Assembly (NCBI RefSeq): GCF_006636205.1
Contig: NZ_VIGB01000003.1
Location: 1,736,001-1,800,000, forward strand
Reading direction: 5' to 3'
Source of the DNA: Kitasatospora acidiphila
GTDB lineage: Bacteria > Actinomycetota > Actinomycetes > Streptomycetales > Streptomycetaceae
DNA: 64,000 nucleotides
Shown here: positions 28,717-47,471 of the stretch, piece after piece
Layout: the number at the start of each line of letters is the position of its first letter
Position numbering within the stretch: the stretch's first letter is position 1
Position numbers and translations under genes: made by a program
Notes under the pieces: model-generated
What the model saw: only the letters and a program-made list of their open reading frames with translations
Told to the model about the DNA's origin: nothing
The model's database searches: none

Positions 28717-31020
28717 CTACTCGTCGCCGTGGCGGGCGGCGGCCACGGCGGTGGCCAGGGCCTCCTTGATGCGGGGGCCCAGGCGGGCGAAGCCCAGCTC
28801 CTTCATCGCGGCGCGCAGCAACTCGTCGTCGGTGCGGGTGGTGTAGTCGCTGTCGATCCAGCGGACCAGGGCGAGCAGTTCCTCAGCGCTGTAAGCGGTG
28901 ATCGGGCGGCCCGGGGTGAGGTCCGGCCGCTGGGGGCGCCGGGGGGCGCGAGCTGCGGGCTCGGGGTCCTCGGCGACGGGCTCCTCGATGACGGGCTCCT
29001 CGGCGGCGGGGGCCTCCGCAGTGGGCTCCTCGGCGACGGGGGCGAGCTCGGCCACGGGCTCCTCGGCGACCGGGGACTCCGCGACGGGCTCCTCAGCGAC
29101 GGGGGCGAGCTCGGCCACGGGCTCCTCGGCGACCGGGGACTCCGCGACAGGCTCCTCACCGACGGGGGCGAGCTCGGCCACGGGCTCCTCGGCGACCGGG
29201 GACTCCGCGACGGGCTCCTCGGCAATGGGGGCGAGGGCCGGAGTCTCGGCGACCGGGGAGGGGTCGGGCTCGATGACGGGCTCGGGCTCCTCGGCGGCGG
29301 GGGACTCGGTGACGGGCTCCTCCGCAACTGGCGCTTCTGCGGTGGGCTCCTCGGCAACCGGCTCGGGCTCGGTGACCGGCTCCTCGGCGATCGCCACGGG
29401 AGCCGGCTCGGGCTCTTCGGTCACCTCCGGCACGGCGGCGACGGACTCCTCGGCGACCGGAGCGGCCTCGTCCTCGGTCGCGACCGGGGCCGGCGTCTCG
29501 GCCGCGACGGGCTCCACCTCGGCGACGGGGGCGGGGCCCTCGGTAGCCGCCTCCGAGGAGGGCACGACCTCGATGGTCTCCTCAACCACCGCGACGGCCG
29601 GCTCCTCGACGAGCTCCACGGCCTCAACAGCGTCAGCCGGCTCGACGATCGGTGCCTCGTCGACCGCCACGGGATCCGGCTCGGGCTCCTCGACCGCCTC
29701 CGTATCCTCGACCGTCACCTCGGCCACCACGGCCTCGGCAATCGGCTCCGGCTCGGCGGCGACCTGCTCTTCCTCCTCGACCTCGACCTCGTCGGCGGCC
29801 GGGGCGATGACCTCCAGGGCCGGTTCCGGCGAGGGCGACGGGATGACGATCAGGTCGGCAGCCGCATCCTCGCTCTCGACGACCGCCGCCACCGCGTCAA
29901 CCTCGGCCTCGACCTCGACCTCGACCGCGGACTCGGATTCCGCCGCAGCGTCGACCTCGGACGCCGTGTCAGCCTCGACCACGACCGACTCAGCGTCCGA
30001 CACGTCTACCGCGTCCACCGCGTCCGCCGCCTCCGACTCCCGCGCCAGCGCCTCGTGCGCCTCGTGCGCCTCGTGCGCCTGGTGCGCCTCGTGCGCCTCG
30101 TGCGCCTCGTGCGCCTCGTGCGCCACCCGCGCCGTCCACGCGGCCTCCGCCGCCGCGCGGTCGGCCCGAGCCGCCGTCAGCTCGGCGAGCAGCTCGGCAA
30201 GGCCCGCGCCCTCCAGCTCGGCGCGCAGGGTGCGCAGTTCGGGCAGGCGGTAGAGGGTGCCCTCGTCTGCGGCCAGTGCCTCCACCAGCTCGCCGAGCTC
30301 GTCGAACCCCAACTCGTCCAGCGCCTGACCGTCCAGCAGCCGGCCCAGCTCCCGCAGTCCGCCGGCCAGCGCATCCGCGCACTGCCCGGTGAGTTCCAGC
30401 AGTTCGGCGTCGACCGGCCGCGCCACCGTGCCGGCGACGGGGGCCAGCGCCTGCCACTCCTCGCGCTCGGCGGCGGCGGCCAGCAGGGCGGCGTGCAGCG
30501 CGTCGCGGCGCGGGCGGTCGGCGACGGCGAGTCGGCGGGCCTCGGCGCGCAGCTTGCGGCGGCGGCCCCAGGAGATCTTGAGTCCGCGTTCCTTGCGCCA
30601 ACTGCCGCTGGCGGTGGCGGCCGCGAGGGCGTCGAGGTCCGCCTCGTAGGCGCCCGAGCGGAGGGTGGCCGCGGTCTCTCCGACCCGGCGCAGCAGGCCG
30701 ACGAGGGTCACCACCTCGGCCACCGTGGTGGATTCACGCAGGGCGGCTTCGGCGGCCAGGCGGTCGGCGGCCTCGCGCAGCGCGCTGAGGTCGCCGCCGC
30801 GGACCTCGGCGAGCGCGGTGGAACCGGCCCGGGCTTCTTCGGGGTTGGTCACGGTGTCGGCGGCGGTGTACCAGGCGTGGGTGTCCACGGCCAGTGTGAA
30901 ACCGCCGAGTTCGGCGTACCTGAGCAGGTTCTCGCCCAGGTCGGCCGCGGGGTCGGGCGCAGGGTCGCCGGAGCGGTCCTGCTGCGGTACATCAGCGTTC
31001 TTGACGGGAAGCACTGTCAT
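28717..31020 (-). CDS. Very acidic repeat-rich protein with helicase-linker-like ends, function unknown
   Basis: A 767-residue cytosolic protein with no TM helix. ATG 31020 is chosen by sequence character. The ribosome site is weak. Residues about 25-300 (THAWYTAADTVTNPEEA, LLRRVGETAATLRSGAYEADLDALAAATASGSWRKERG, SWGRRRKLRAEARRL) look like the helical region found in large Streptomyces AAA/DUF4011-type helicase-like proteins. The last 55 residues (YSAEELLALVRWIDSDYTTRTDDELLRAAMKELGFARLGPRI) match the tail of the same proteins. The ATPase core is absent. The middle is (AHE)n near 30050-30121 and a Glu/Ala/Val/Pro region with nearly identical blocks of EEPVAESPVAEEPVAELAP (28970-29225). The last codons are also imperfectly duplicated just downstream (28634-28698). 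Confidence 0.8.
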   Translation of the reverse strand: MTVLPVKNADVPQQDRSGDPAPDPAADLGENLLRYAELGGFTLAVDTHAWYTAADTVTNPEEARAGSTALAEVRGGDLSALREAADRLAAEAALRESTTVAEVVTLVGLLRRVGETAATLRSGAYEADLDALAAATASGSWRKERGLKISWGRRRKLRAEARRLAVADRPRRDALHAALLAAAAEREEWQALAPVAGTVARPVDAELLELTGQCADALAGGLRELGRLLDGQALDELGFDELGELVEALAADEGTLYRLPELRTLRAELEGAGLAELLAELTAARADRAAAEAAWTARVAHEAHEAHEAHEAHQAHEAHEAHEALARESEAADAVDAVDVSDAESVVVEADTASEVDAAAESESAVEVEVEAEVDAVAAVVESEDAAADLIVIPSPSPEPALEVIAPAADEVEVEEEEQVAAEPEPIAEAVVAEVTVEDTEAVEEPEPDPVAVDEAPIVEPADAVEAVELVEEPAVAVVEETIEVVPSSEAATEGPAPVAEVEPVAAETPAPVATEDEAAPVAEESVAAVPEVTEEPEPAPVAIAEEPVTEPEPVAEEPTAEAPVAEEPVTESPAAEEPEPVIEPDPSPVAETPALAPIAEEPVAESPVAEEPVAELAPVGEEPVAESPVAEEPVAELAPVAEEPVAESPVAEEPVAELAPVAEEPTAEAPAAEEPVIEEPVAEDPEPAARAPRRPQRPDLTPGRPITAYSAEELLALVRWIDSDYTTRTDDELLRAAMKELGFARLGPRIKEALATAVAAARHGDE
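28970..29230. repeat. In-frame 66-bp repeats encoding VAEEPVAESP blocks
   Basis: At least three near-identical units of about 66 bp in the acidic protein gene, differing at a few third positions. A second simple repeat of 9-bp units encoding AHE lies at about 30050-30121. Confidence 0.85.
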
Positions 31021-31243
31021 GGGGAACGTCCGGATTCGTGGCGAGGGGCTGCGTCGGTACGGCCGTCGGGCTGCGGGTGGAGCGTGGTCGCGTCCCGGGG
31101 TCCGTGCTGGTAGGTCAGGATACGGGTGGGCGTTCGACCGTTGCACGCACCCGCCGTCGCTGCCTGCCACTGTGCCGTGCTCACGCCACCGTGTGCACCC
31201 CTGACACGCCTCTGCCCGACTGCCACCCCGTTGCCGTCTGCTC

Positions 31244-32317: not shown

Positions 32318-34066
32318 ATGTCGCGCAGCCACTACCTCGCTCTGCCGGACAGCGACCGAACGCCACGCCGTGGCGCCGTGGTCGCCGGACCGGTCAGCCC
32401 GACCGAAACCCTGTCCGTCACCGTCTACCTGCGACGCGACCCCGTTGCCGCCGCCACGCCCGACCCCACCGACTACGCCTTGGTGCCGCCCACCCAGCGC
32501 GCCGCGCCCGACGAGGCGGCACTGAACGCCGCCAACCGGGCCGTGCCGCAGGACGTGGAGGCGGTCGAGCGGTTCGCCGCCCGCCACGGGCTGACGGTCA
32601 GCTCCGTCAACCAGCTGGCCCGCAGCGTCCGGCTGACCGGCACCACCGCCCAGATGTCGGAGGCCTTCCAGGTCACCCTGGCCCGCTACACCTACCGGGA
32701 CCGCGACCAGCGCCACCGCAGCTACCGCGGCCGCGAGGGCGCGGTGCACGTGCCAGCCGAGCTGCACGGGATCATCACCGCCGTGCTCGGCCTGGACGAC
32801 CGGCCGCTGGGCGCCAACCTGCTGACCCGTCAGACGGCCAGGATCCCGCTCGCCCAGCTGCCCGCGAGGGCGGGTGGCGGCCTGCCGCCCGGCGCCTTCC
32901 TGCCGACCGACCTGGCCGCCCCCTACGCCTACCCCGGCTCGCTGGACGGCACCGGCCAGACCATCGCCGTGCTCGCCTTCAACGGCCAGACGCAGCCCGG
33001 CGTGCCGTCCGGCGGCTACAGCCCGTCCGCGTTGCAGACCTACTTCACCCAGGTGCTGCACGCCCCGATGCCGCAGATCACCGACATCACGGTGCACGGC
33101 CCCGGCAACGACCCGGGCCAGGACGACGGGCAGGGCGATCCCGCCGACAGCACCGGCGAGATCATGCTCGACCTGCAGGTGGTCGGCGCGCTGGCACCCG
33201 GCGCCAAGATCGTCGTCTACTTCACCGAGTTCACCGAGCAGGGCTGGGTGGACGCGATGAACGCGATCACCACCGACACCGCCAACCGCCCCGGCATCAT
33301 CTCGTGCAGCTACGGCAACCCGGAGGACGATCCGGGCTCGGCGTGGACCAGGATGGCGATCACCGCCGTCGACCAGGCCTTCGCCCAGGCGGCGCTGCGC
33401 AACATCAGCATCTGCTGCGCGTCCGGTGACGACGGCTCCCGCGACCAGGGCAGCGACAACCGGGCGCACGCCGACTTCCCGGCGTCCAGCCCGCACGTCC
33501 TCGGCGTCGGCGGTACCCGGCTGGTGGCCGGCGGCGGGCAGGTGGTCAGCGAAACGGTCTGGGACGACGGGCCGGGCAGCGCCACCGGCGGCGGGGTCAG
33601 CCGCTGGTTCCCGGTGCCGACCTGGCAGACCTCGGCGCCGGTGCCGCCGTCGGCCAACCCACCGCATCACAAGGGCCGCGGGGTGCCGGACGTCTCCGCG
33701 CTCGCCGACCCGCAGACCGGGGTGGTGATCATCAGCGTGGACGGTCAGCACCTGGTCCAGATCGGGGGCACCAGCGCGGCCGCACCGCAGTGGTCCGCAC
33801 TACTGGCCCGGGTCAACCAGGGGCTGGGCGCGCCGGTCGGGTTCCTCAACCCGCTGCTGTACGGCAAGTTGGCGAGCGGCGTGCTGCGGGACATCACCCG
33901 GGGCAGCAACGGCGCCTACCCGGCCGGCCCGGGCTGGGACGCCTGTTCGGGCTTCGGCAGCCCCGGCGGCCAGGCCCTGCTGGACGGCCTGAAGGCGCTG
34001 GGTGCACAGCATGCCCGGATCCCGGCCCCTGCCGCACCGACCTCGAGCGAGGTGCCGACGGGCTGA
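32318..34066 (+). CDS. S53 family (sedolisin/kumamolisin-like) serine-carboxyl peptidase
   Basis: The 582-residue protein has an N-terminal activation pro-domain (residues about 1-165: FAARHGLTVSSVNQLARSVRLTGTTAQMSEAFQV) and a catalytic domain beginning near AYPGSLDGTGQTIAVLAF. The catalytic triad is visible: E281 and D285 in STGEIMLDLQVVG and S486 in GGTSAAAPQWSALLA. The oxyanion Asp is in the ASGDDGSRDQ region, and the C-terminal calcium site is RDITRGSNGAYPAGPGWDACSGFG. No classical signal peptide, which is usual for bacterial pro-kumamolisins. Acts in acid conditions after self-processing. Divergent TetR gene may control it. Confidence 0.95.
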   Translation: MSRSHYLALPDSDRTPRRGAVVAGPVSPTETLSVTVYLRRDPVAAATPDPTDYALVPPTQRAAPDEAALNAANRAVPQDVEAVERFAARHGLTVSSVNQLARSVRLTGTTAQMSEAFQVTLARYTYRDRDQRHRSYRGREGAVHVPAELHGIITAVLGLDDRPLGANLLTRQTARIPLAQLPARAGGGLPPGAFLPTDLAAPYAYPGSLDGTGQTIAVLAFNGQTQPGVPSGGYSPSALQTYFTQVLHAPMPQITDITVHGPGNDPGQDDGQGDPADSTGEIMLDLQVVGALAPGAKIVVYFTEFTEQGWVDAMNAITTDTANRPGIISCSYGNPEDDPGSAWTRMAITAVDQAFAQAALRNISICCASGDDGSRDQGSDNRAHADFPASSPHVLGVGGTRLVAGGGQVVSETVWDDGPGSATGGGVSRWFPVPTWQTSAPVPPSANPPHHKGRGVPDVSALADPQTGVVIISVDGQHLVQIGGTSAAAPQWSALLARVNQGLGAPVGFLNPLLYGKLASGVLRDITRGSNGAYPAGPGWDACSGFGSPGGQALLDGLKALGAQHARIPAPAAPTSSEVPTG

Positions 34067-34079
34067 TCAATAGCCCTTC

Positions 34080-34109
34080 CAGGGGCGGCACTTGGACCGG
34101 CCGCCCCTG
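34080..34109 (+). terminator. Terminator after the S53 peptidase gene
   Basis: A perfect 10-bp stem CAGGGGCGGC (34080-34089) and GCCGCCCCTG (34100-34109) with a 10-base loop, 14 bases after the stop codon. Confidence 0.75.
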
Positions 34110-34114
34110 AAAGC

Positions 34115-34270
34115 CCGTTGCACTGCAGGGCCGTTGCACTGCAGGGCCGTTGCACTGGAAGGCCGTTGCACTGGAAGGCCGTTGCACTGCAGGGCCGTTG
34201 CACTGGAAGGCCGTTGCACTGCAGGGCCGTTGCACTGGAAGGCCGTTGCCCGGAAATTCCGTTGCCTGCC
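34115..34270. repeat. 16-bp tandem repeat array (about 9.75 units)
   Basis: Units start CCGTTGCACTG and end either CAGGG (type A) or GAAGG (type B). Order: A A B B A B A B, followed by one diverged unit (34243-34258) and a partial one. No unique spacers lie between units, so this is a minisatellite and not a CRISPR. It fills the space between the S53 terminator and the acetyltransferase gene. Confidence 0.95.
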
Positions 34271-34298
34271 GCACCGGCCGCCACGCAGAATGCGCGCC

Positions 34299-37268: not shown

Positions 37269-37921
37269 CAACCATTGTTCGCCTTGTGGAAGAGCAGGCA
37301 GGCGTGGGGGACGCGGGCCTCGGGATCCTCCAGGAGCTGGGCCTGCGTCATGAATCCCGAATGGGTGGCGAGTTCGGCGATGCGGTCGGGCTGGAGGAGG
37401 TGGACGTCGAGAGCCATGGGGTGGCCGCCGTAGCCCTCGCGCTTGCGCCGGACTTCGTCGCCGACATGGAAGCCGAGCAGCAGGTGGCCGCCCGGGGCCA
37501 GGGCCCGGTGGAACTCGGCGAAGGCGGTGGGGAGTTCAGCGGGCGGGAGGTGGATGATCGAGTACCAGGCCACGATGCCGGCGAGTTGGCCGTCGGGGAG
37601 GTCGAGAGCGGTCATGGTGCCGGTGTCGAACCGCAGATGGGGGTGGTCGCGCCGAGCCACCTCGACCATCCCCGGTGAGAGGTCGATCCCGCCTACGTCC
37701 AGGCCGAGTTGATGCAGATGCGCCGTCACATGACCGGGTCCGCAACCCACATCAGCCACCGGACCGCCACCCGAGGCGAGCACGAACTCGGCAAACGCAC
37801 CGAGCATGCCGCGCCCCAACTTGTCGCGCTGGAAGGCGGGTCGCACGAAGGCGGCGTAGTCGACGGCGACGGTGTCGTAGGAGGTGCGCGTCTCGGTGAG
37901 GTAGGTGGGCTCCTCAATCAT
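37265..37921 (-). CDS. SAM-dependent methyltransferase
   Basis: The 218-residue enzyme has YDTVAVDYAAFVRPAF, motif I GPVADVGCGPGHVTAHLHQLGLDVGGIDLS, and FHRALAPGGHLLLGFHVGDEVRRKREGYGGHPMALDVHL. It resembles the trans-aconitate/ubiquinone-type class I methyltransferases. ATG 37921 is chosen by homology (MIEEPTYLTETRTSYD). ATG 37933 is in frame and neither has a clear ribosome site. The DNA upstream is a graveyard of gene fragments. Confidence 0.9.
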   Translation of the reverse strand: MIEEPTYLTETRTSYDTVAVDYAAFVRPAFQRDKLGRGMLGAFAEFVLASGGGPVADVGCGPGHVTAHLHQLGLDVGGIDLSPGMVEVARRDHPHLRFDTGTMTALDLPDGQLAGIVAWYSIIHLPPAELPTAFAEFHRALAPGGHLLLGFHVGDEVRRKREGYGGHPMALDVHLLQPDRIAELATHSGFMTQAQLLEDPEARVPHACLLFHKANNGC

Positions 37922-38012
37922 GCGAGTGACCATACCGGCGAGGTGGTGTCGGGCCGTCGGCACCCGGTGGAGGCCGGCTACTCCCCGGTGTTGTTGCCCA
38001 AGCACAGGATGT

Positions 38013-38153
38013 AAGGGCACCGCGAACACCCTGGCCTCACTAAGGTCGATCCGGGCTGCCCGACCGGACGGCGCCCCGGTCTACGTGATCCTGGACAACC
38101 TCTCCACCCACAACGGCAAAAAGATCCTCCGCTGGGCGAAGGACAACAACGTC
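38013..38153 (+). pseudogene. IS630-family transposase remnant
   Basis: An in-frame piece of 47 residues reads KGTANTLASLRSIRAARPDG, then APVYVILDNLSTHNGKKILRW. The DNLSTHN motif with the second catalytic Asp is typical of IS630 DDE transposases. Neither terminus nor inverted repeats are preserved, so the element is dead. Confidence 0.75.
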
Positions 38154-38252
38154 CACTCTGCGCCCGAATCCGCAGCGAGAAGGGCCTGCGCTGGGGCGGA
38201 CGACCGGCGAAAGTCGCGTGACTCTACCAATGGCACCGGCGACACTGACGCC

Positions 38253-38340
38253 ATGACTGGTTCTGCACTGCCTCGACTGCTTCGACCGCGTGCCCTGAGG
38301 CCCGGAGATCTGGTTGTCATCGCATCGCTGTCCGGTCCGG
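38253..38340 (+). pseudogene. 5' fragment of an S66 LD-carboxypeptidase gene
   Basis: ATG 38253 opens LPRLLRPRALRPGDLVVIASLSGP, the standard N-terminus of S66 (microcin C resistance/LD-carboxypeptidase) proteins, then breaks into an unrelated coding fragment. Only about 29 residues remain. Confidence 0.6.
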
Positions 38341-38520
38341 AGCGGCATCCGCCCGCTCGACCTGAAGGCGCTGCTCGACCTGTACAGCGTGGTGAATCCG
38401 CAGGAACGTGATGGCTGGCTCGCCCTCGCCCGGGAGGGACGCCATCAGCGATGGTGGCGGATGTTGGAGGATCAGCTTCCCCAGGACTTCTTGGACCTGA
38501 TCGGACTTGAGGAAGACGAA
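38341..38520 (+). pseudogene. Internal fragment of an XRE/DUF5753 regulator gene
   Basis: About 60 residues read SGIRPLDLKALLDLYSVVNP, QERDGWLALAREGRHQRWW and QDFLDLIGLEEDE. This spans the end of an XRE helix-turn-helix and the start of DUF5753, as in the many Scr1-type regulators of Streptomyces. Both ends are missing. Confidence 0.7.
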
Positions 38521-38688: not shown

Positions 38689-39507
38689 TCACGTGCCGGG
38701 CCGCCGCCCCCGGAGCGGCGTGAGACTCTGGGCGCGGACCCAGCCTGACCAGCCGTTCGAGCAGATGATGTTTGCCCAGCCGCTCGCCTCGTCGGAGACT
38801 TGTACTTCGAGTCCGGCGTTGAGTTGCGAGACGGGGGCCCGCGCCGGGTCGGGAGTGCTCCAGGCGGGTTCGCCTCCCTTGGCGATGCGATGAGTCGGCT
38901 GCCACGCGTGCGCGGCGTTCGGCGGTGGCGGCGGAGACGGAGGCGGAGAGGCTTCGGGGGGTGGCCCGAGGCCTTGCTTCTCCGGCGCCGCGGCCCGTGC
39001 CTCGGGGCGCGCTTCTCCCGTCCCGGCTGGCGCCGAGGCCACTTTGGACTCGGCTTCCTCCAGGGAGCGCTGGGCCTCGGCCATCAAACGTTCGGCCTCC
39101 TGGAGCTCGGATGCCTGGGTCCCGGCCTCTGCGCCGACTTCATCGAGGAACGTGACGGCGCGGGCCATCTCCGCGGCAACGCCGACGAACGACTGTCGTG
39201 AAAGCCCCTCCAGGTACAGCGTCATGCGCACCTGGATCGCCTGACTCGTGGCCGTGCAGTGCAGCAGGCCGGATCGCGCCTGGGCACACGCGTGCGCGAG
39301 CCGGTCCAGCGGAAACAGCGACGCGGCCGCATCGCCCGGCCGCCACGGTGGATGCCATTCGAGGACAAGTTCCACCTCGTCGGGGCTCTTCTCCTGTGCG
39401 GTGATCTCTGCGGGTGTCATTCCTTCAAATGTCACGCTCAAACCGCCCGGTACCCCGCGCACCGGCCCGTCCGCGCCCCACCGTGCGATCAGCTCGCTCC
39501 ATCCCAT
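38689..39507 (-). CDS. Uncharacterised protein with coiled coil and C-terminal SH3-like domain
   Basis: The 272-residue protein has an excellent GAGGAGGA before ATG 39507. The N-terminal 120 residues form a mixed domain (VTFEGMTPAEITAQ, VELVLEWHPPWRPGDAAASLFPLDRLAHACA, SQAIQVRMTLYLEGL). Residues about 120-155 are a coiled coil (ASELQEAERLMAEAQRSLEEAE), then a Pro-rich linker (PPPEASPPPSPPPPP). The last 60 residues (AWSTPDPARAPVSQLNAGLEVQVSDEASGWANIICSNGWSGWV) look like a bacterial SH3 fold. No signal peptide or TM helix. It lies 11 bases downstream of the surface protein gene on the same strand, so the two form an operon. Family not recognised. Confidence 0.82.
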   Translation of the reverse strand: MGWSELIARWGADGPVRGVPGGLSVTFEGMTPAEITAQEKSPDEVELVLEWHPPWRPGDAAASLFPLDRLAHACAQARSGLLHCTATSQAIQVRMTLYLEGLSRQSFVGVAAEMARAVTFLDEVGAEAGTQASELQEAERLMAEAQRSLEEAESKVASAPAGTGEARPEARAAAPEKQGLGPPPEASPPPSPPPPPNAAHAWQPTHRIAKGGEPAWSTPDPARAPVSQLNAGLEVQVSDEASGWANIICSNGWSGWVRAQSLTPLRGRRPGT

Positions 39508-39518
39508 CTCGTCCTCCT

Positions 39519-41312
39519 CTACTGGTCGATCCCGATGATCGACCCGTCACTGCCGTAGCTGTACGAAGGAGCTGGGCGGTGCCACGTCCCTTCCGGCAGG
39601 TTTCCTGCCGCGAGGCAGTTCTGATGGGTCCGTTCACGCCTGTCGTAGAGGCTTTGTGCGTCACGGCGCAGGTCGTCGATCTCTGCCGCCCGTCGGCCGA
39701 GGTCGTCGTCGTACCCTTTCGCAGCCCCATCGATCGCGTCGCTCAGTGCCCTGGTGAACTGCACCATGTCCAGTCCCAGTTGCCGCAGCCTTGGCAGCTT
39801 CGAGTACGGGATGCGGATGGAGTACTCCGGGAAGTCCACTTGCACGTTCGTACCCGGGATTGTCTCGGAAAACGCCGGTATGGTCACTTTCAAACCCTGG
39901 AAGTTGTTGTAGATTTTCCGGGCGAGCCCGAAGAGCCGCCATGCCCGGATCCCCCTGGCGGCCACCGTCGTCGCCAGAGTGCCCACCGCGCCGATCATCG
40001 TGGCGAGTGAGCTGTAGAACCCCATTCCCAGGAGCATATTGGTGCCACCGGCAGCCACCTCCGCGTCGTAGTGCGCAATACGCCAGCGAAGTTCCGCGGC
40101 CTTGCTTCGCATCTCCGCGGCCGTGACTTCGAAATTCGCCTTGTGCAGGCTGACGTCATTCCGTTCGTCGACCGCCTGCCGCATCTCGTTCAGCGTCCGG
40201 TTCAGGTCCTGGTCAAGCTGTAGGAGCAAGTCCCCGCACTCCCCCTGATTCCGCGGCTCGAACCCGTCGTCTCCGACCGGCGGACGGCGCCGGCGGCGGT
40301 TCAATGCGAGCAGTCCGGCGATGGCCGCCGCTGCCGCGGCTCCCAGGCCCGCCACGAGCGGCAACACGGAGGATCCACCACCCGTCGGATGGGTACCGGG
40401 TAACTCGGACCCCTGGCTGGGAGCGAGCGACGGAGACTGTGCGGTCTGGCCGGCCCCGGCCCTGGTGAACAACACGGTCGGGGAGTCCGCACTCACGTTG
40501 TTGACGGTGTCGCTCGCCTTCACGCTCACCTGGTGGTCGCCGACCGACACACCGCCAAGACTCAGGGTGTTCCCGGTCGCGCCGGGCTGTACCTGTCCGT
40601 CGACCGTCCATTCGTAGGTGATGTTGGAGTTGGCGGCTTCACCCGTCACCCCGGCCGAACAGGTCACTTGGCCGGAATCCTGAAGCACGCTGGTGTCGCA
40701 GGTCAGCCCCGCCGCCAGCCCGGCCGGGGCTGACTGCGCAGCGCTGGGTGACGGCTGACCGGATGTTGCGGGAGCAGAAGAGCCGGCTGATGGCTGGCCG
40801 GAGGTCGCGGGAGCAGAAGAACCGGCTGATGGCTGGCCGGAGGTCGCGGGAGCGGTCGGATAGACATTGACTACGAACATGCCCTGGATATTGCTGTCAT
40901 TGGCCTCGATGTTCTCGTAGGTGTGGGTGATGCCCAGTTCCAACTTCCCGTCGATCGGCGCAGTGAAGGAGCCGCCGACGCCGATATCGAAAAGCGTGTT
41001 GTTGCCGGCACCGAACCGGCCTTTGAGGTTGTAAGCAAAGAATCCGAGCTGGTAGTACCCGTCCGGGCCCCACGGTTGATTCGAGTTCGGATAATTCAGC
41101 ATGCCCGTGGCGGTGACTGCGAAGCTCTGACCCTTCTTGAGCTGAATCCCCGTGGACAGCCAGCTGCCGGGCTTGACGTCGAAGGTCTGGGCCTGCGCGC
41201 CGGCAGGTACCGGAACCGCCCAGACGAACACGGTGAGGACAGCGGCGAGCAGCGCAAGGATCCGAAAGTGCGCCGCGTGCGGAGGCGGTGCTTGTGGCGG
41301 TTGAGAAGTCAT
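39519..41312 (-). CDS. Membrane-anchored protein with LecA-like and Ig-like extracytoplasmic domains and a cytosolic coiled coil
   Basis: A 597-residue protein with a signal peptide (residues 1-41, ending GAQA). Residues about 42-150 (FDVKPGSWLSTGIQLKKGQSF, NQPWGPDGYYQLG, FDIGVGGSFTAPIDGKLELGI, IEANDSNIQGMFVVNVYP) resemble the PA-IL (LecA) galactose-lectin fold. A linker holds three copies of APATSGQPS(A/P)GSS. Then comes an Ig/PKD-like domain (LTCDTSVLQDSGQVTCSAGV...), a TM helix (VLPLVAGLGAAAAAAIAGLLAL) with RRRRR stop-transfer, and a cytosolic half that is mostly helical with hydrophobic stretches near AAGGTNMLLGMGFYSSLATMIGAVGTLATTVAA. GGAAGGG precedes ATG 41312. Orientation: lectin-like part outside, coiled coil inside. 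A sensor or adhesion role is likely but unproven. Confidence 0.82.
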   Translation of the reverse strand: MTSQPPQAPPPHAAHFRILALLAAVLTVFVWAVPVPAGAQAQTFDVKPGSWLSTGIQLKKGQSFAVTATGMLNYPNSNQPWGPDGYYQLGFFAYNLKGRFGAGNNTLFDIGVGGSFTAPIDGKLELGITHTYENIEANDSNIQGMFVVNVYPTAPATSGQPSAGSSAPATSGQPSAGSSAPATSGQPSPSAAQSAPAGLAAGLTCDTSVLQDSGQVTCSAGVTGEAANSNITYEWTVDGQVQPGATGNTLSLGGVSVGDHQVSVKASDTVNNVSADSPTVLFTRAGAGQTAQSPSLAPSQGSELPGTHPTGGGSSVLPLVAGLGAAAAAAIAGLLALNRRRRRPPVGDDGFEPRNQGECGDLLLQLDQDLNRTLNEMRQAVDERNDVSLHKANFEVTAAEMRSKAAELRWRIAHYDAEVAAGGTNMLLGMGFYSSLATMIGAVGTLATTVAARGIRAWRLFGLARKIYNNFQGLKVTIPAFSETIPGTNVQVDFPEYSIRIPYSKLPRLRQLGLDMVQFTRALSDAIDGAAKGYDDDLGRRAAEIDDLRRDAQSLYDRRERTHQNCLAAGNLPEGTWHRPAPSYSYGSDGSIIGIDQ

Positions 41313-41530
41313 GGACAAGCGCCCTTCCCGGGCTGCGCGGCCGAGGTTCTCGGAGTCGACGAAAGCAGCCGACTGACGGTCGACCGAAGCTCGATCACCG
41401 GCTCCGCGCGAGCACCGTCGGCGAACGCGCCGATCACTGCACACCCACGAGCGAGCCGCTCGATCACGCGTTGGGCGGCCACCAGGCAGGTGGTCAAACC
41501 CCCGTGCTCGGCCCCCCACAGGTCCAGCAT
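41309..41530 (-). CDS. Possible small protein or truncated gene upstream of the surface protein
   Basis: The reading frame MLDLWGAEHGGLTTCLVAAQRVIERLARGCAVIGAFADG...PVIELRSTVSRLLSS looks protein-like. It ends with an ATGA overlap with the start of the surface protein gene, as coupled genes do. Sequence upstream of ATG 41530 in the same frame also looks coding for a short way, then meets the truncated end of the opposed MmyB fragment. The gene may therefore have lost its 5' end at that junction. No family recognised. Confidence 0.4.
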   Translation of the reverse strand: MLDLWGAEHGGLTTCLVAAQRVIERLARGCAVIGAFADGARAEPVIELRSTVSRLLSSTPRTSAAQPGKGACP

Positions 41531-41587: not shown

Positions 41588-42235
41588 GTGGTGGACGCGC
41601 TGGCCCGCGCGCTGCGGCTCGACCCGGTGGAACGCGAGCACCTGAACGACCTGCTGGCCCGCCCCGGCACGGTGCGGCAGACCACCGCCGCCCCGCAGCG
41701 GGTGCGCCCGGGCCTGCACTTGATGCTGCAGACCCTGGAGCACGTCCCGGCGTTCGTCCTCGGCCGGCGCACCGATGTGCTGGCCGCCAACCGGCTGGCC
41801 CGCGAGGTGCTGACCGACTTCGACGCGCTGCCGGCCACCCAGCGCAACTTGGCCCGCTACTACCTGCTCGACCCCACCGCCCGGGAGAAGGTCGGCGACT
41901 GGGCCCGGATCGCCGCCGAGACCGTGGCGATCCTGCGACTTGAGGCCGGCCGCTATCCGAACGACCGCCGGCTGGCCGATCTGGTCGGCGAACTCACCCT
42001 GCGCTGCCCCGAGTTCACCACCTGGTGGAATGACCACAAGGTGCTGCGCCGCACCCACGGCAGCAAGTCCTACGTGCACCCCGAGGTCGGCGAGCTGCAC
42101 TTCGCCTACGAGTCCTTCCAGCCCCCGGGCGATCCCGACCAGACCCTGTGCGTCTACAACGTCGAGCCGGGCTCGCCCACCGCCGACGCGCTGCGGCTGC
42201 TGGCCAGTTGGACGGCCGATCCGGCCACTCGGTGA
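41588..42235 (+). pseudogene. MmyB-like regulator lacking its DNA-binding domain
   Basis: Encodes the C-terminal four fifths of an XRE/MmyB-like regulator: VVDALARALRLDPVEREHLNDLLARPG, PAFVLGRRTDVLAANRLAREVLTDFDALPATQRNLARYYLLDPTAREKVGDW, and the closing ligand-binding part HPEVGELHFAYESFQPPGDPDQTLCVYNVEPGSPTADALRLL. The usual N-terminal helix-turn-helix (LRREEVAQLAG...) is absent upstream. Family sequence begins abruptly near 41575. A GTG at 41588 could still start a headless protein. Confidence 0.75.
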
Positions 42236-43910: not shown

Positions 43911-44357
43911 GTGTCTCAAACTGAGGACGAGGGCGGCGGGTCAAGGTCGGGCGGGTCGCTCGCAGGGGTTGCGCTCGTCGTTGCCGTCGCGATCATCGCG
44001 GTGTGGCTCGGGTTCCTCGTCTGGCTGGCCGTCGACACCGGTGCGAGCGAGATCACCTGGTCACGCCTGCTCGTCGTCCTTGCCTCGGTGGAGGCCGTCG
44101 CCTTTGCAGCGATCGGCGCGTTGTTCGGCACTACCGTGCAGAGACAGCGAGTTGAGGACCTGAAGGCGCGCACGGACGCCGCCGAGAGTCGCGCGGAGGC
44201 GAACCAGACGGCGGCTCTCAACGGCCACAAGCTCGCCGCGGCGGTCAAGGCGTCCCGCGGTCCCCGTGCGGACGGATCGGCCGAACGGCTCTCGGCTGAG
44301 GCTCAGCCGGGCAGTGATCCTCTACTCGCGCTGGCCGACCGGCTGTTCCCGGACTAG
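43911..44357 (+). CDS. Two-TM membrane protein with cytosolic coiled coil (first gene of the trypsin/kinase cassette)
   Basis: A 148-residue protein with GTG 43911 after AAGGGGG. It has an acidic N-terminus, TM helices at AGVALVVAVAIIAVWLGFLVWL and VVLASVEAVAFAAIGALFGTTV, then a coiled coil VEDLKARTDAAESRAEANQTAALNGHKLAAAVKA and a Pro/Ser tail. It ends 7 bases before the trypsin-FHA gene, so it is co-transcribed. Probably the membrane anchor or effector of the cassette. Family not recognised. Confidence 0.8.
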   Translation: MSQTEDEGGGSRSGGSLAGVALVVAVAIIAVWLGFLVWLAVDTGASEITWSRLLVVLASVEAVAFAAIGALFGTTVQRQRVEDLKARTDAAESRAEANQTAALNGHKLAAAVKASRGPRADGSAERLSAEAQPGSDPLLALADRLFPD

Positions 44358-44364
44358 GGCCGCC

Positions 44365-45369
44365 ATGGACGTGGTCGGGAGGCTGGTACGTGACGGTGTG
44401 GCCGTCGGCACCGCATTCATCGTCACCGCCGACGGGTTGGCCGCCACCGCCGCACACGTGATCGGTCCTCACCCGGAGGCCGAATGGACCTTCGAGCCGC
44501 TGACGGTGCCCGGGGTGTCGCTGCCGGTCGACGCCGCACTGCCGTCGGACGCGGCAGCCGACTTGGCGCTTCTGCAGGTCGGCGCGGCCGCCGAGTGGCA
44601 GCCCATGGCGCTCGTGTCACACACGAGCGCCACCCCCGGGGATCCGGTTCACCTGCGCGGTTTCGCCGCCTCGCGCGACTACGACTCCGGGGTGGGCCAC
44701 TATGTGGGCGTGACGGCGGAGACCGGCCGTGCCTGGGTGAAGGTCAGCTGCCGGCACGCTCAACCCGGTATGAGCGGCGCACCTGTGCTGCTCACCGGGA
44801 CGGGTGGCGTCATCGGTGTCGTGTCCGCCCGCCTCAACGCCGAGCGCTGGAACCGTGACACGGTTCTGCTCTCCTGCGTGGAAGATCTCGTCGCGCTCGC
44901 GCCGGAGCGTCTGCGTCTGCGTCTGCGTCCCACCGCACCGGCCGACCGGTTCATCCGCGGAACTCTCCGCCTGTCGTGGGTGCGGGGAAACCGGACGGAA
45001 CTCCTCCTGGAGACCGATGACTTCACCATCTCGTTCGGCCGCAGTTCGGCCAGCCGGGTGTACCTGCCCGACCCTCGCGACAGTCGCTTCCACGGCCATC
45101 TGAGCCTGGTCGGCACGACGCTCGTCTATCAGCACCTCGGATCCCGCCCCGCGTTCCTTGCCGGCGCCACCCGGCAGTTGAGGATCGCCAAGGGCGACTC
45201 ATGCCCGGTCGGTGACAAGGACCGCATCAGCGTCGCGAGTGGAACGATGCTGGTGGAGTTCAGCGCACCTGATCTCTACGACCCCAACGCGGCACCGACG
45301 GCGTCAGAAGATGACGATGAGACTGAGACTGAGACTGAGGCTGAGGAGGAGGCAGGCGATGGACGATGA
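44365..45369 (+). CDS. Trypsin-like peptidase fused to an FHA-like domain
   Basis: A 334-residue soluble protein. Residues 1-180 are a chymotrypsin-fold protease with His31 in ATAAHVIG, Asp66 in SDAAADLALLQV and Ser137 in HAQPGMSGAPVLLT. Residues about 195-300 form an FHA-like domain: LLLETDDFTISFGRSSASRVYLPD (GR-S), RFHGHLSL (H in the usual second motif) and DKDRISVASG. The tail is a Glu/Thr repeat coded by GAGACT units (45319-45350). FHA domains bind phosphothreonine, and the next gene is a Ser/Thr kinase. Kinase-dependent recruitment or activation of the protease is the obvious inference. ATG 44365 has no strong ribosome site. Overlaps the kinase gene by 11 bases. Confidence 0.87.
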   Translation: MDVVGRLVRDGVAVGTAFIVTADGLAATAAHVIGPHPEAEWTFEPLTVPGVSLPVDAALPSDAAADLALLQVGAAAEWQPMALVSHTSATPGDPVHLRGFAASRDYDSGVGHYVGVTAETGRAWVKVSCRHAQPGMSGAPVLLTGTGGVIGVVSARLNAERWNRDTVLLSCVEDLVALAPERLRLRLRPTAPADRFIRGTLRLSWVRGNRTELLLETDDFTISFGRSSASRVYLPDPRDSRFHGHLSLVGTTLVYQHLGSRPAFLAGATRQLRIAKGDSCPVGDKDRISVASGTMLVEFSAPDLYDPNAAPTASEDDDETETETEAEEEAGDGR

Positions 45370-46582
45370 GCTGACCGTCGACGGGCCGTGCGAGCCTCCT
45401 CGGCTCCTCGCCGGCGCACCCGCAGCCGTGGGCGAGGTGGTGGCCGGCCGCTGGTCGGTCTCGGAGATCCGTCGTGGTGGCCAGTCGTGGGTCCTGATGG
45501 TGGACGATGTCGAGCGCGGAGATCGCCGCGCGATCAAGATCCCGCGCTCCGGTTCAGCCGTCGGTGACGCCGAGCTTGCGATGCTCCTGGGACTCGAACC
45601 CCACCCTCACGTTGTCACTGCTCTTGACGAGACGTCGATCGGCGGCCGCCGGGGCATCGTGTTGGAGTACACCCCCTCGACGCTGGCCGACTTGCTGAGG
45701 CAGTTGCACGGCTCCCCCTCGTTCCCGTCTTCGATCGGCCGGCACACCGGCGCCCTCCGCCCCACGGAGGCGGCACCGGTGCCGGATCGACTCACCCAGG
45801 TACTCCAGGGTGTGTGCGCCGGCCTGGTTCACCTGTCCAAGCGCACGGAGATGGCGCACCTCGATATCAAGCCGTCGAACGTGCTCATCGACGACACCGG
45901 TAACGCCAAGATCGCCGACTTCGGCCTCGCACTGCAGGTCCGCATCCAAGGCGGACGGTTTCCGTCGGCACGCGGCGGAACCTGGGCGTACGCCGCACCC
46001 GAGGCGCTCCGGCAGGAACCGTGCGACACGCGGACGGACATCTTCTCGTTCGGCGTGCTCCTCTATCAGGCCTGTACGGGAAGGCTCCCCTACCCCTTTC
46101 CACTGGCATCGGATCCGGCCACGCAGCGCACCCAGCTGCTCGACTACTACGCGTCCGACGGACCACGGGAGCGCACCCAAGAGCTGTACTACTGGGGGCA
46201 GGGCACCCTGACCCAAGTGCCGGTCCCGCCCCCGGGTGAGGACATCAGCATCATCCTCTCCAGTTGCCTCCAAGTGCTGAGGGAGAATCGTCCATTGTCA
46301 TTCCGGCACCTCGCCCCCATGCTTGACGCGGGCCTTCGGAGACCGCCGCTGCACACCACGGCCGTTCCACTGGTCGAGGCCGACGAGCACCGCAGGGAAC
46401 TCGCGTTGTCGCACGCCCTGCTCCGGCTGGGCCGCTTCGGCGAGGCTGTGAACCACCTCAACCGGTTGCTCACCGCGCCCCTGCCCCGGGAGCTCTTCAC
46501 GGAAGTGCACCGGACGGCCGTGGATGCCTTGACCGCCGCAGGTCGTCACCTCGAAGCAGCCGCACTCAGAGAATGCCGGTGA
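45359..46582 (+). CDS. Serine/threonine protein kinase with C-terminal helical region
   Basis: A 407-residue cytosolic kinase. It has no clear glycine-rich loop (IRRGGQSWVLMV instead), Lys60 in RAIKIPRSG, Glu72 in DAELAML, catalytic loop MAHLDIKPSNVLID (D169, K171, N174), DFG at 187-189 with IADFGLAL, and AAPEAL. Residues 300-407 are helical, with ELALSHALLRLGRFGEAVNHLNRLL resembling TPR units. GGAGGAGG precedes ATG 45359, which lies inside the trypsin-FHA gene, so translation is coupled. No TM or PASTA domains, unlike the housekeeping PknB type. Likely partner of the FHA protease. Confidence 0.92.
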   Translation: MDDELTVDGPCEPPRLLAGAPAAVGEVVAGRWSVSEIRRGGQSWVLMVDDVERGDRRAIKIPRSGSAVGDAELAMLLGLEPHPHVVTALDETSIGGRRGIVLEYTPSTLADLLRQLHGSPSFPSSIGRHTGALRPTEAAPVPDRLTQVLQGVCAGLVHLSKRTEMAHLDIKPSNVLIDDTGNAKIADFGLALQVRIQGGRFPSARGGTWAYAAPEALRQEPCDTRTDIFSFGVLLYQACTGRLPYPFPLASDPATQRTQLLDYYASDGPRERTQELYYWGQGTLTQVPVPPPGEDISIILSSCLQVLRENRPLSFRHLAPMLDAGLRRPPLHTTAVPLVEADEHRRELALSHALLRLGRFGEAVNHLNRLLTAPLPRELFTEVHRTAVDALTAAGRHLEAAALRECR

Positions 46583-46586
46583 TCCC

Positions 46587-47471
46587 ATGCCGCGATTCGG
46601 ACTTCGGGAGTGGTGGAGCAAGCGGCGCAAGGGTCCGCTGGACGAGAGTCCACCGGACGCGGGGACCGAGGGGAGCCTGCTGGGGCGCGTGGAGGAGTTG
46701 CTCCGGGACGGTCGGCGCAGAACGGCGATGGATGAGGTCCTGCGGGAGTTGCGCCATCCCTCCCCCAGGGGGTTCCTGGCCCCGCAGATCGCTCGGGTGC
46801 TCCTGTCGACGAGCCGCACGGCCAATCTCGAAGCGGCTGAGCCGCTGACCGGTCAGCAACGGGCAAGCGCGCTTCTGGCAGACCTCATGACGGAGTGTTC
46901 GGCTTGCCACACCGCCTGGTGCTCGCCCCATGCTCTCGTTCCCAGCACCCAGACGATCAGGTCGATCAACCCCGCGGGGCTGCAATGCCAGCAGTGCCGG
47001 TACACGCTGTGCAAGGACTGCCTGAGCGAGTACCCTCCGCCGGGGACCGGGCCCGTCGACATGCCGCGCATTCCGTACGGTGCTTGCCCGACCCACAGCG
47101 AGCTGACCACGCCGGTGCTCCCGACCGGACGCCATGACGTCAAACCGAGGGATCCCGAAGGGATCGAAGGCGTCATCGTCGCAAGGAACGGCCCCATCCT
47201 CCCGACGATGGAGGATGCCCTCCCATTGGTGACCAGGTTCCTGCCGCTCATCGCCGATGACGCCCCCATCATTCACATCCGCCGAAGCTTTCCTGGTGCC
47301 ATGGCCAGCGAATCCACCCGCGACCAGCTGGCGCTGTCCCACATCCGCGAGTTGGAGCGCGATGGGGTGCTGCTTCCGGGAGCGTGGGAGCGCTCGGAGT
47401 GCATGTTCGTTCTCGCGGGCACCATGCCCGACACCGACTACCTGATCACCGTGGTGAACAGACCAGGGTAG
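46587..47471 (+). CDS. Cys-rich zinc-site protein of the trypsin/kinase cassette, function unknown
   Basis: A 294-residue protein 4 bases after the kinase stop. A basic, helical N-terminus (EWWSKRRKG; LLGRVEELLRDGRRRTAMDEVLREL) is followed by a double metal site: C104, C107, H108, C112, H115, then C134, C137, C142, C145 and C167, H170 (SACHTAWCSPH; LQCQQCRYTLCKDC; GACPTH). The spacing is RING- or B-box-like. The last 110 residues are an alpha/beta domain (EGIEGVIVARNGPILPTMEDALPLVTRFLPLIADDAPIIHIRR). I do not recognise the family. It could be a kinase substrate, protease target or effector. Confidence 0.8.
   Translation: MPRFGLREWWSKRRKGPLDESPPDAGTEGSLLGRVEELLRDGRRRTAMDEVLRELRHPSPRGFLAPQIARVLLSTSRTANLEAAEPLTGQQRASALLADLMTECSACHTAWCSPHALVPSTQTIRSINPAGLQCQQCRYTLCKDCLSEYPPPGTGPVDMPRIPYGACPTHSELTTPVLPTGRHDVKPRDPEGIEGVIVARNGPILPTMEDALPLVTRFLPLIADDAPIIHIRRSFPGAMASESTRDQLALSHIRELERDGVLLPGAWERSECMFVLAGTMPDTDYLITVVNRPG

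Follow-up and report, generated by a model that had tools for sequence, protein, structure and literature searches.

A rare two-gene unit of Kitasatospora acidiphila with a lectin-like surface protein and a predicted chaperone-fold/SH3 partner

The gene pair

The stretch of the Kitasatospora acidiphila genome analyzed here (RefSeq assembly GCF_006636205.1, contig NZ_VIGB01000003.1, positions 1,736,001 to 1,800,000) is 64,000 nucleotides long; it is called the window below, and its own numbering is used throughout. On its minus strand lies a two-gene unit whose open reading frames (ORFs) are both intact. Translation yields a single-pass membrane protein of 597 amino acids (aa) (protein 1, P0001; 39519-41312) and a soluble protein of 272 aa (protein 2, P0002; 38689-39507), in which all hydropathy windows stay at or below 1.4. 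The 11-base gap between the two genes (39508-39518), AGGAGGACGAG, contains the ribosome site of protein 2. The unit is rare, and the placement of a surface protein with a lectin-like tip beside an inner chaperone-fold/SH3 protein looks like a way of bringing an outside signal inward.

A first-pass annotation, made from the sequence alone, had described these two ORFs and the 11 bases between them, and translation agrees with it. It had also suspected a coupled short gene upstream. That frame (41313-41519) has a guanine plus cytosine (GC) content of 0.78/0.70/0.65 by codon position, unlike the local coding DNA, and is not retained. The GC content at third codon positions (GC3) of the genes for proteins 1 and 2, 0.78 and 0.79, is coding-like, yet lies under that of the six neighbors compared (0.80-0.94). 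As sequence and prediction, the layout of a lectin-like outer tip, an Ig-like stalk, one transmembrane (TM) helix, an inner tail, and a soluble SH3 partner holds.

Architecture of the membrane protein

All features of the pair lie on the minus strand. Protein 1 begins with a signal peptide (about residues 1-40; 41193-41312), recognized by its hydropathy, which peaks at 2.42 (19-residue window beginning at residue 18), with the cleavage point set by eye. Behind the putative lectin-like tip follows a linker of three 13-aa repeats (residues 153-191; 40740-40856), in which APATSGQPS recurs at residues 154, 167, and 180 and which appears in the DNA as three 39-nucleotide repeats. The next module is a PKD/Ig-like domain (residues 208-276; 40485-40691) that matches Pfam PKD (E 5.5e-4, under its cut-off), T4 Hoc (E 8e-5), and a Hoc-like PHROG family (E 1e-6), and that has a counterpart at a second locus described below. 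The hydropathy profile then shows a single strong peak, with windows starting at residues 312-321, which corresponds to a TM helix at about residues 314-337 (40302-40373) with RRRRR directly behind it. Signal peptide, repeats, Ig-like domain, and the single helix had all been named in the first-pass annotation and are recovered here by hydropathy, repeat finding, and the PKD and Hoc matches.

According to the positive-inside rule, basic residues flank the cytosolic side of a TM helix. Because RRRRR follows the helix, the C-terminal part of protein 1 should lie inside the cell. This inner tail (residues 346-597, 252 aa; 39522-40277) has no accepted relatives and includes a Gly/Ala-rich hydrophobic stretch. 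A weaker hydrophobic stretch, overlooked in the first pass, starts at residue 426 (mean hydropathy 1.42). Since basic residues come after it as well, it is more readily understood as lying on the membrane or buried than as a second crossing.

The outer tip (residues 41-152; 40857-41192) is probably of distant LecA-like origin, as judged from its sequence. Among 177,635 distinct PDB sequences, with matches considered to E ≤ 10, its sole match is the LecA homologue PllA (5odu, E 0.0028), with which it shares a PDG motif in the alignment. A query with longer ends gave PllA at E 0.0029 plus one unrelated match at E 0.57. The resemblance to LecA proposed from the sequence is thus upheld by PllA, but not by the family profile: the cut-off of Pfam PA-IL (PF07828) is not reached, with no row for P0001 at E ≤ 1 and none for the isolated tip at E ≤ 5. 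The same profile had no match at E ≤ 0.1 in the genome of K. acidiphila itself and exceeded its cut-off in none of 396 genomes, with 11 weak rows besides. Structure prediction, which had been suggested as a check on the PA-IL fold, adds little to the PllA match. The single-sequence model is all-beta but poor (predicted local distance difference test, pLDDT, 57), and its best Foldseek match (E 0.08) is an unrelated protein and of no use. In a second fold comparison, the N-domain of EclA ranked third at a weak Z of 3.9 over 67 residues, tied with unrelated weak rows.

A calcium/sugar loop and a glycan-sensing role had also been envisaged for the tip, and neither finds support. In EclA, calcium is bound through the side chains of Asp114, Asp121, and Asn122, and according to the portions of the article considered here, the galactose-binding residues of the EclA N-domain are not conserved and the domain has no known carbohydrate ligand (PMC11875179). 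The corresponding spacing, [DNE]-x6-[DN]-N, is absent from residues 121-152 of protein 1, where the calcium loop was placed by eye beyond the HMMER alignment; the nearest arrangement is N134-x6-N141, followed by Ile142. Calcium-dependent sugar binding by the tip therefore appears doubtful. Given that both the PA-IL profile and the published ligand spacing are missed, the term lectin is used here as a lead rather than a function, and membership of the PA-IL family is not claimed.

Architecture of the soluble partner

The first half of protein 2 (residues 1-136; 39100-39507) is predicted to adopt the fold of type III secretion chaperones and YbjN-like proteins. Its single-sequence model (pLDDT 67; predicted template modeling score 0.60) shows an alpha-beta fold with helices flanking one beta-sheet. 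With this model Foldseek reached a best E of 1.2e-3. Most of its matches are type III chaperones or proteins of the YbjN type; the first 30 rows include YbjN, Spa15, VecA, InvB, AmyR, and DR_1245, as well as Arp2/3 and Cdc7 chains. The second fold comparison gave a best Z of 10.5 (124 of 136 residues, root-mean-square deviation 3.5), above the value of 7 to 8 that is typical of this tool for models without a clear match. The first 36 rows there are taken up by type III chaperones, proteins of the YbjN type, and four otherwise titled entries (4h5b, 3cxj, 2plg, 8q8o), and Arp2/3 rows start only at Z 6.8. In the fold tables, the chaperone/YbjN rows show 6-16% identity (6-14% for the second comparison), and the domain had no sequence-profile match in Pfam (E ≤ 5) or NCBIfam (E ≤ 0.1). 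With identity this low and no family profile matching, the assignment is a claim about fold. In its known relatives, the type III chaperone/YbjN fold binds stretches of a partner protein.

After residue 136, protein 2 continues with a helix, a linker (34% proline in residues 160-200), and an SH3 domain (residues 203-264; 38716-38901). The earlier description of a soluble coiled-coil/SH3 partner agrees as to solubility and SH3, but the protein is not mainly coiled-coil/SH3, its first half being predicted as chaperone-like. The isolated SH3 domain matches SH3_16 at E 2.5e-5 (24.4 bits versus a cut-off of 25.8), and its relatives likewise match SH3 profiles only below the cut-off.

This SH3 family is present in 57 of 70 genomes of the same genus, at 62 places. 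The best other match (E 8.7e-19) belongs to a second class, and matches to the class found in kinase operons start at 2.5e-14; profile comparison of the protein 2 SH3 domain with the latter class by hhalign gave a probability of 98.4. The context of the best 30 of the 62 places was counted by searching 1.5-kb flanks for protein-kinase and ABC signature motifs. Both motifs were found at 25 places, four others are the locus of a 1200-aa membrane protein (L066-L069), and the remaining one is the window itself. This points to an inner SH3 protein that accompanies FHA-ABC transporter and kinase genes across most of the genus, and it is mainly on account of these 25 of 30 places that coupling to a kinase is proposed. 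A parallel count of Ig motifs (0 of 30) is not used as evidence, as even at the window the Ig-like gene lies beyond flanks of 1.5 kb.

Two of these contexts may be described individually. At L071:5249-9099, genes for an FHA-ABC transporter, an SH3 protein, and a Ser/Thr kinase stand in a row; a Pfam check of this locus confirmed the FHA, ABC transporter, and kinase assignments next to the SH3 gene. At L067:1135-8358, a WD40-like protein, a multi-TM protein, the 1200-aa membrane protein, and a long SH3 protein are encoded consecutively, an arrangement seen in four genomes (L066-L069). No similarity was returned by hhalign between the chaperone-like domain and the long SH3 proteins encoded at L066, L067, and L069.

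The features described so far could also belong to a structural adhesin, in which protein 1 would fasten the cell to outer polymers or to the cell's own wall, and protein 2 would merely assist assembly as a chaperone, with no signal passed on. Adhesins commonly present a lectin-like tip on an Ig-like stalk and a linker of Pro/Ser/Thr repeats, and the predicted chaperone fold of protein 2 would fit as well. An inner tail of 252 aa and an SH3 domain of a kinase-operon family, however, exceed what an adhesin needs, and this explanation is considered somewhat unlikely.

A second locus in the same genome

In the genome of K. acidiphila, protein 1 and the SH3 domain have two matches each, and these fall at the same two loci, the window and L035. 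At L035 (L035:7089-11734), an SH3 gene (C3:7125047-7125733), a gene for a 429-aa protein predicted to have a single TM helix, and a gene for an Ig-like TM protein of 562 aa (C3:7122083-7123771) lie contiguously on one strand, in reversed gene order relative to the window pair. Identity between the two loci is 49% for the Ig-like parts and 39% for the SH3 domains. The L035 SH3 protein also matches six kinase-operon SH3 proteins with 31-38% identity over 142-181 residues. By after-the-fact arithmetic, random placement in a genome of 8.58 Mb would bring about two coincidences of this kind, each to within about 4 kb, with a chance of very roughly 1e-6.

The outer head and the inner tail of the 562-aa protein differ from those of protein 1. 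BLAST found no significant similarity between the two Ig-like proteins beyond the Ig-like part, and hhalign returned nothing when the protein 1 tail was compared with the 429-aa protein, with the tail of the 562-aa protein, and with the 1200-aa proteins of L066-L069.

A proposed receptor with an inner adaptor

The reading that we favor, tentatively and with a little less than even confidence, is that the pair constitutes a membrane receptor and its inner adaptor, in which the chaperone domain holds the receptor tail and the SH3 domain couples it to kinase signaling. Protein 1 would be anchored by its one TM helix and would display the distant LecA/PllA relative outside on the repeat linker and Ig-like stalk. 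In the cytosol, the chaperone-fold domain of protein 2 would bind and stabilize the tail of protein 1. The contact between tail and chaperone may then change when a ligand binds or clustering occurs outside, upon which the SH3 domain might recruit kinase/FHA machinery. The gene layout, the signal peptide and TM helix in the hydropathy profile, the usual kinase context of the SH3 family, and the co-location with an Ig-like protein at two loci are observations; the LecA-like and chaperone folds are predictions; the binding of protein 1 to protein 2, the direction of the signal, and a ligand are what we infer from them.

Several points weigh against this proposal. Foldseek gave no match at E ≤ 0.001 for either the tip or the protein 2 domain, and both folds were modeled from single sequences. 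The weak hydrophobic stretch at residue 426 would allow more than one topology for the C-terminal end of protein 1. The pairing rests on two loci, whose protein tails are without similarity, and a common origin by duplication could explain it instead of functional coupling. Moreover, profiles of cell-wall anchors are nearly reached by the TM part of the L035 Ig-like protein (E 0.023 and 0.1, both under cut-off), although the chain runs on for more than 200 residues beyond it. Neither of the two SH3 genes of K. acidiphila has an FHA-ABC transporter or kinase gene as its neighbor, the operon itself not having been searched for genome-wide; the kinase gene nearest to the pair (45212-46582) is on the opposite strand, about 4 kb off. 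Finally, orthologues of protein 1, of the protein 2 chaperone domain, and of the pair as a whole were accepted in no other genome, so that nothing shows selection on the pair.

A bolder extension of the receptor-adaptor proposal is a modular receptor family, in which an Ig-like stalk/TM cassette would carry exchangeable heads (LecA-like here, another at L035) and tails, with adaptors drawn from kinase-operon SH3 proteins and a chaperone fold gripping the tail. Such a family is unlikely on present data; if real, it would be a bacterial analogue of immunoreceptor-adaptor signaling. If the wiring proposed for the pair itself is true, it would connect a lectin-like domain outside with kinase signaling inside a high-GC bacterium by a route that can be tested, and a type III chaperone fold would serve as the adaptor part of a membrane receptor.

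Comparison with known systems

Every part of the pair is of a known kind. For the combination of a membrane receptor with a LecA-like tip and a chaperone-SH3 adaptor, the literature search found no title describing it. To the PA-IL lectins (LecA/PllA/EclA) the tip is linked by the PllA sequence match with its PDG motif and by the weak fold match to the EclA N-domain. Unlike in these lectins, it forms the outer domain of a membrane protein and misses both profile and calcium spacing; EclA is not described as a membrane protein in the portions of PMC11875179 considered. The domain of protein 2 resembles type III chaperones and YbjN/AmyR/DR_1245 in its predicted fold, whereas here it is joined to an SH3 domain and its partner would be the tail of a membrane protein.

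The Rv1747-PknF operon of mycobacteria (PMC3908365, in the part consulted) is comparable in that transporter and kinase motifs of its kind accompany the protein 2 SH3 family at 25 of the 30 places. The operons of the genus differ from it by an added SH3 gene, and the operon of the window pair has neither ABC transporter nor kinase. With phage T4 Hoc, protein 1 shares the PKD/Ig-like stalk, a common module; no phage context was seen at the locus. A conflict system of the type described by Aravind was considered and set aside: SH3 and lectin-fold parts are mentioned in the passages seen of PMC7159879 and PMC8195603, which do not describe this layout.

Relatives, neighborhood, and origin

A search of related genomes with the whole of protein 1 gave 34 stretches, of which none was confirmed. 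Neither protein matched plasmids at E 1e-3. Phage sequences gave 323 records for protein 1, and the ten matches listed among them cover the Ig-like part only, with a best E of 3e-2. In 394 genomes of the family, the tip matched its own genome and eight others (E 2.9e-4 to 6.6e-3). The eight weak matches were all rejected on visual inspection, with no family search behind it: six (L007-L010, L012, L013) are one secreted-enzyme-like protein, one (L011) is oxidoreductase-like, and one (L014) is a short frame.

The inner tail was found in one of 100 relatives, its own genome. In a scan of the phylum it matched 8 of 396 genomes; the seven others are limited to residues 169-246 of the 248-residue query (E 8e-4 to 8e-3) and were judged to be chance coiled-coil. 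For the chaperone domain of protein 2 there were two matches in 297 genomes, and the one outside K. acidiphila (L016, E 9.4e-4) was dismissed on visual inspection, being read as a low-complexity frame on the strand opposite to another gene. A scan with an alignment of the two Ig-like parts matched 7 of 109 stretches, in distant phyla, over 99-186 bases.

Next to the pair lie genes for a methyltransferase and an MmyB-like regulator, together with a likely transposase fragment. Directly downstream, the segment 37905-38748 holds the transposase fragment and possibly scraps of other genes; the DDE match falls within a frame on the plus strand (37905-38411; Pfam DDE_3, E 0.0034, residues 30-81, under cut-off). 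On the other side, the plus-strand regulator gene (41588-42235) encodes a full ligand-binding domain (MLTR_LBD, E 7.4e-61), but its DNA-binding domain is recognizable only as a scrap (HTH_31 over 21 residues, E 0.077). GC content is 0.67-0.70 across 36-48 kb; because other parts of the window, for example 58-64 kb, are equally low, composition alone tells little about origin. Lateral acquisition of the pair is plausible, not proven.

These surroundings bear on two further explanations. The pair might be a decaying, lineage-specific one without present function, which would agree with its acceptance in one genome only, with a GC3 below that of the compared neighbors, and with the likely broken genes on both sides. 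Its intact ORFs, recognizable domains, ribosome site, and coding-like composition speak against decay, which is regarded as improbable. To the same small extent we would credit a conflict-type membrane protein, whose tail would act on the membrane or inside the cell, with protein 2 as chaperone or immunity partner. Chaperone/YbjN-like domains do occur in predicted bacterial immunity loci as TY-Chap families (PMC9503650, in the part consulted), and the Gly/Ala-rich hydrophobic stretch of the tail, the rarity of the pair, and again the likely broken genes around it would be in keeping. PADLOC, however, has no model matching protein 1 and gave for protein 2 only a 13.6-bit JetC match of the helical part, and Pfam and NCBIfam revealed no known toxin domain.

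Other features of the window

A same-strand cluster at 43911-47471 encodes a small TM protein, a trypsin-like protein that weakly matches FHA (E 0.086), a Ser/Thr kinase, and a protein whose zinc-finger matches are weak, with GC3 values of 0.80-0.83. It is possibly a signaling or defense cassette, and a link of the pair with this trypsin-like/kinase cluster is possible. At 33916-34284, a short peptide pattern is repeated in the translations of both strands, between protease-like and acetyltransferase-like genes. At 28717-31170 lies a gene for a long protein with many repeats rich in Pro, Glu, Ala, and Val.

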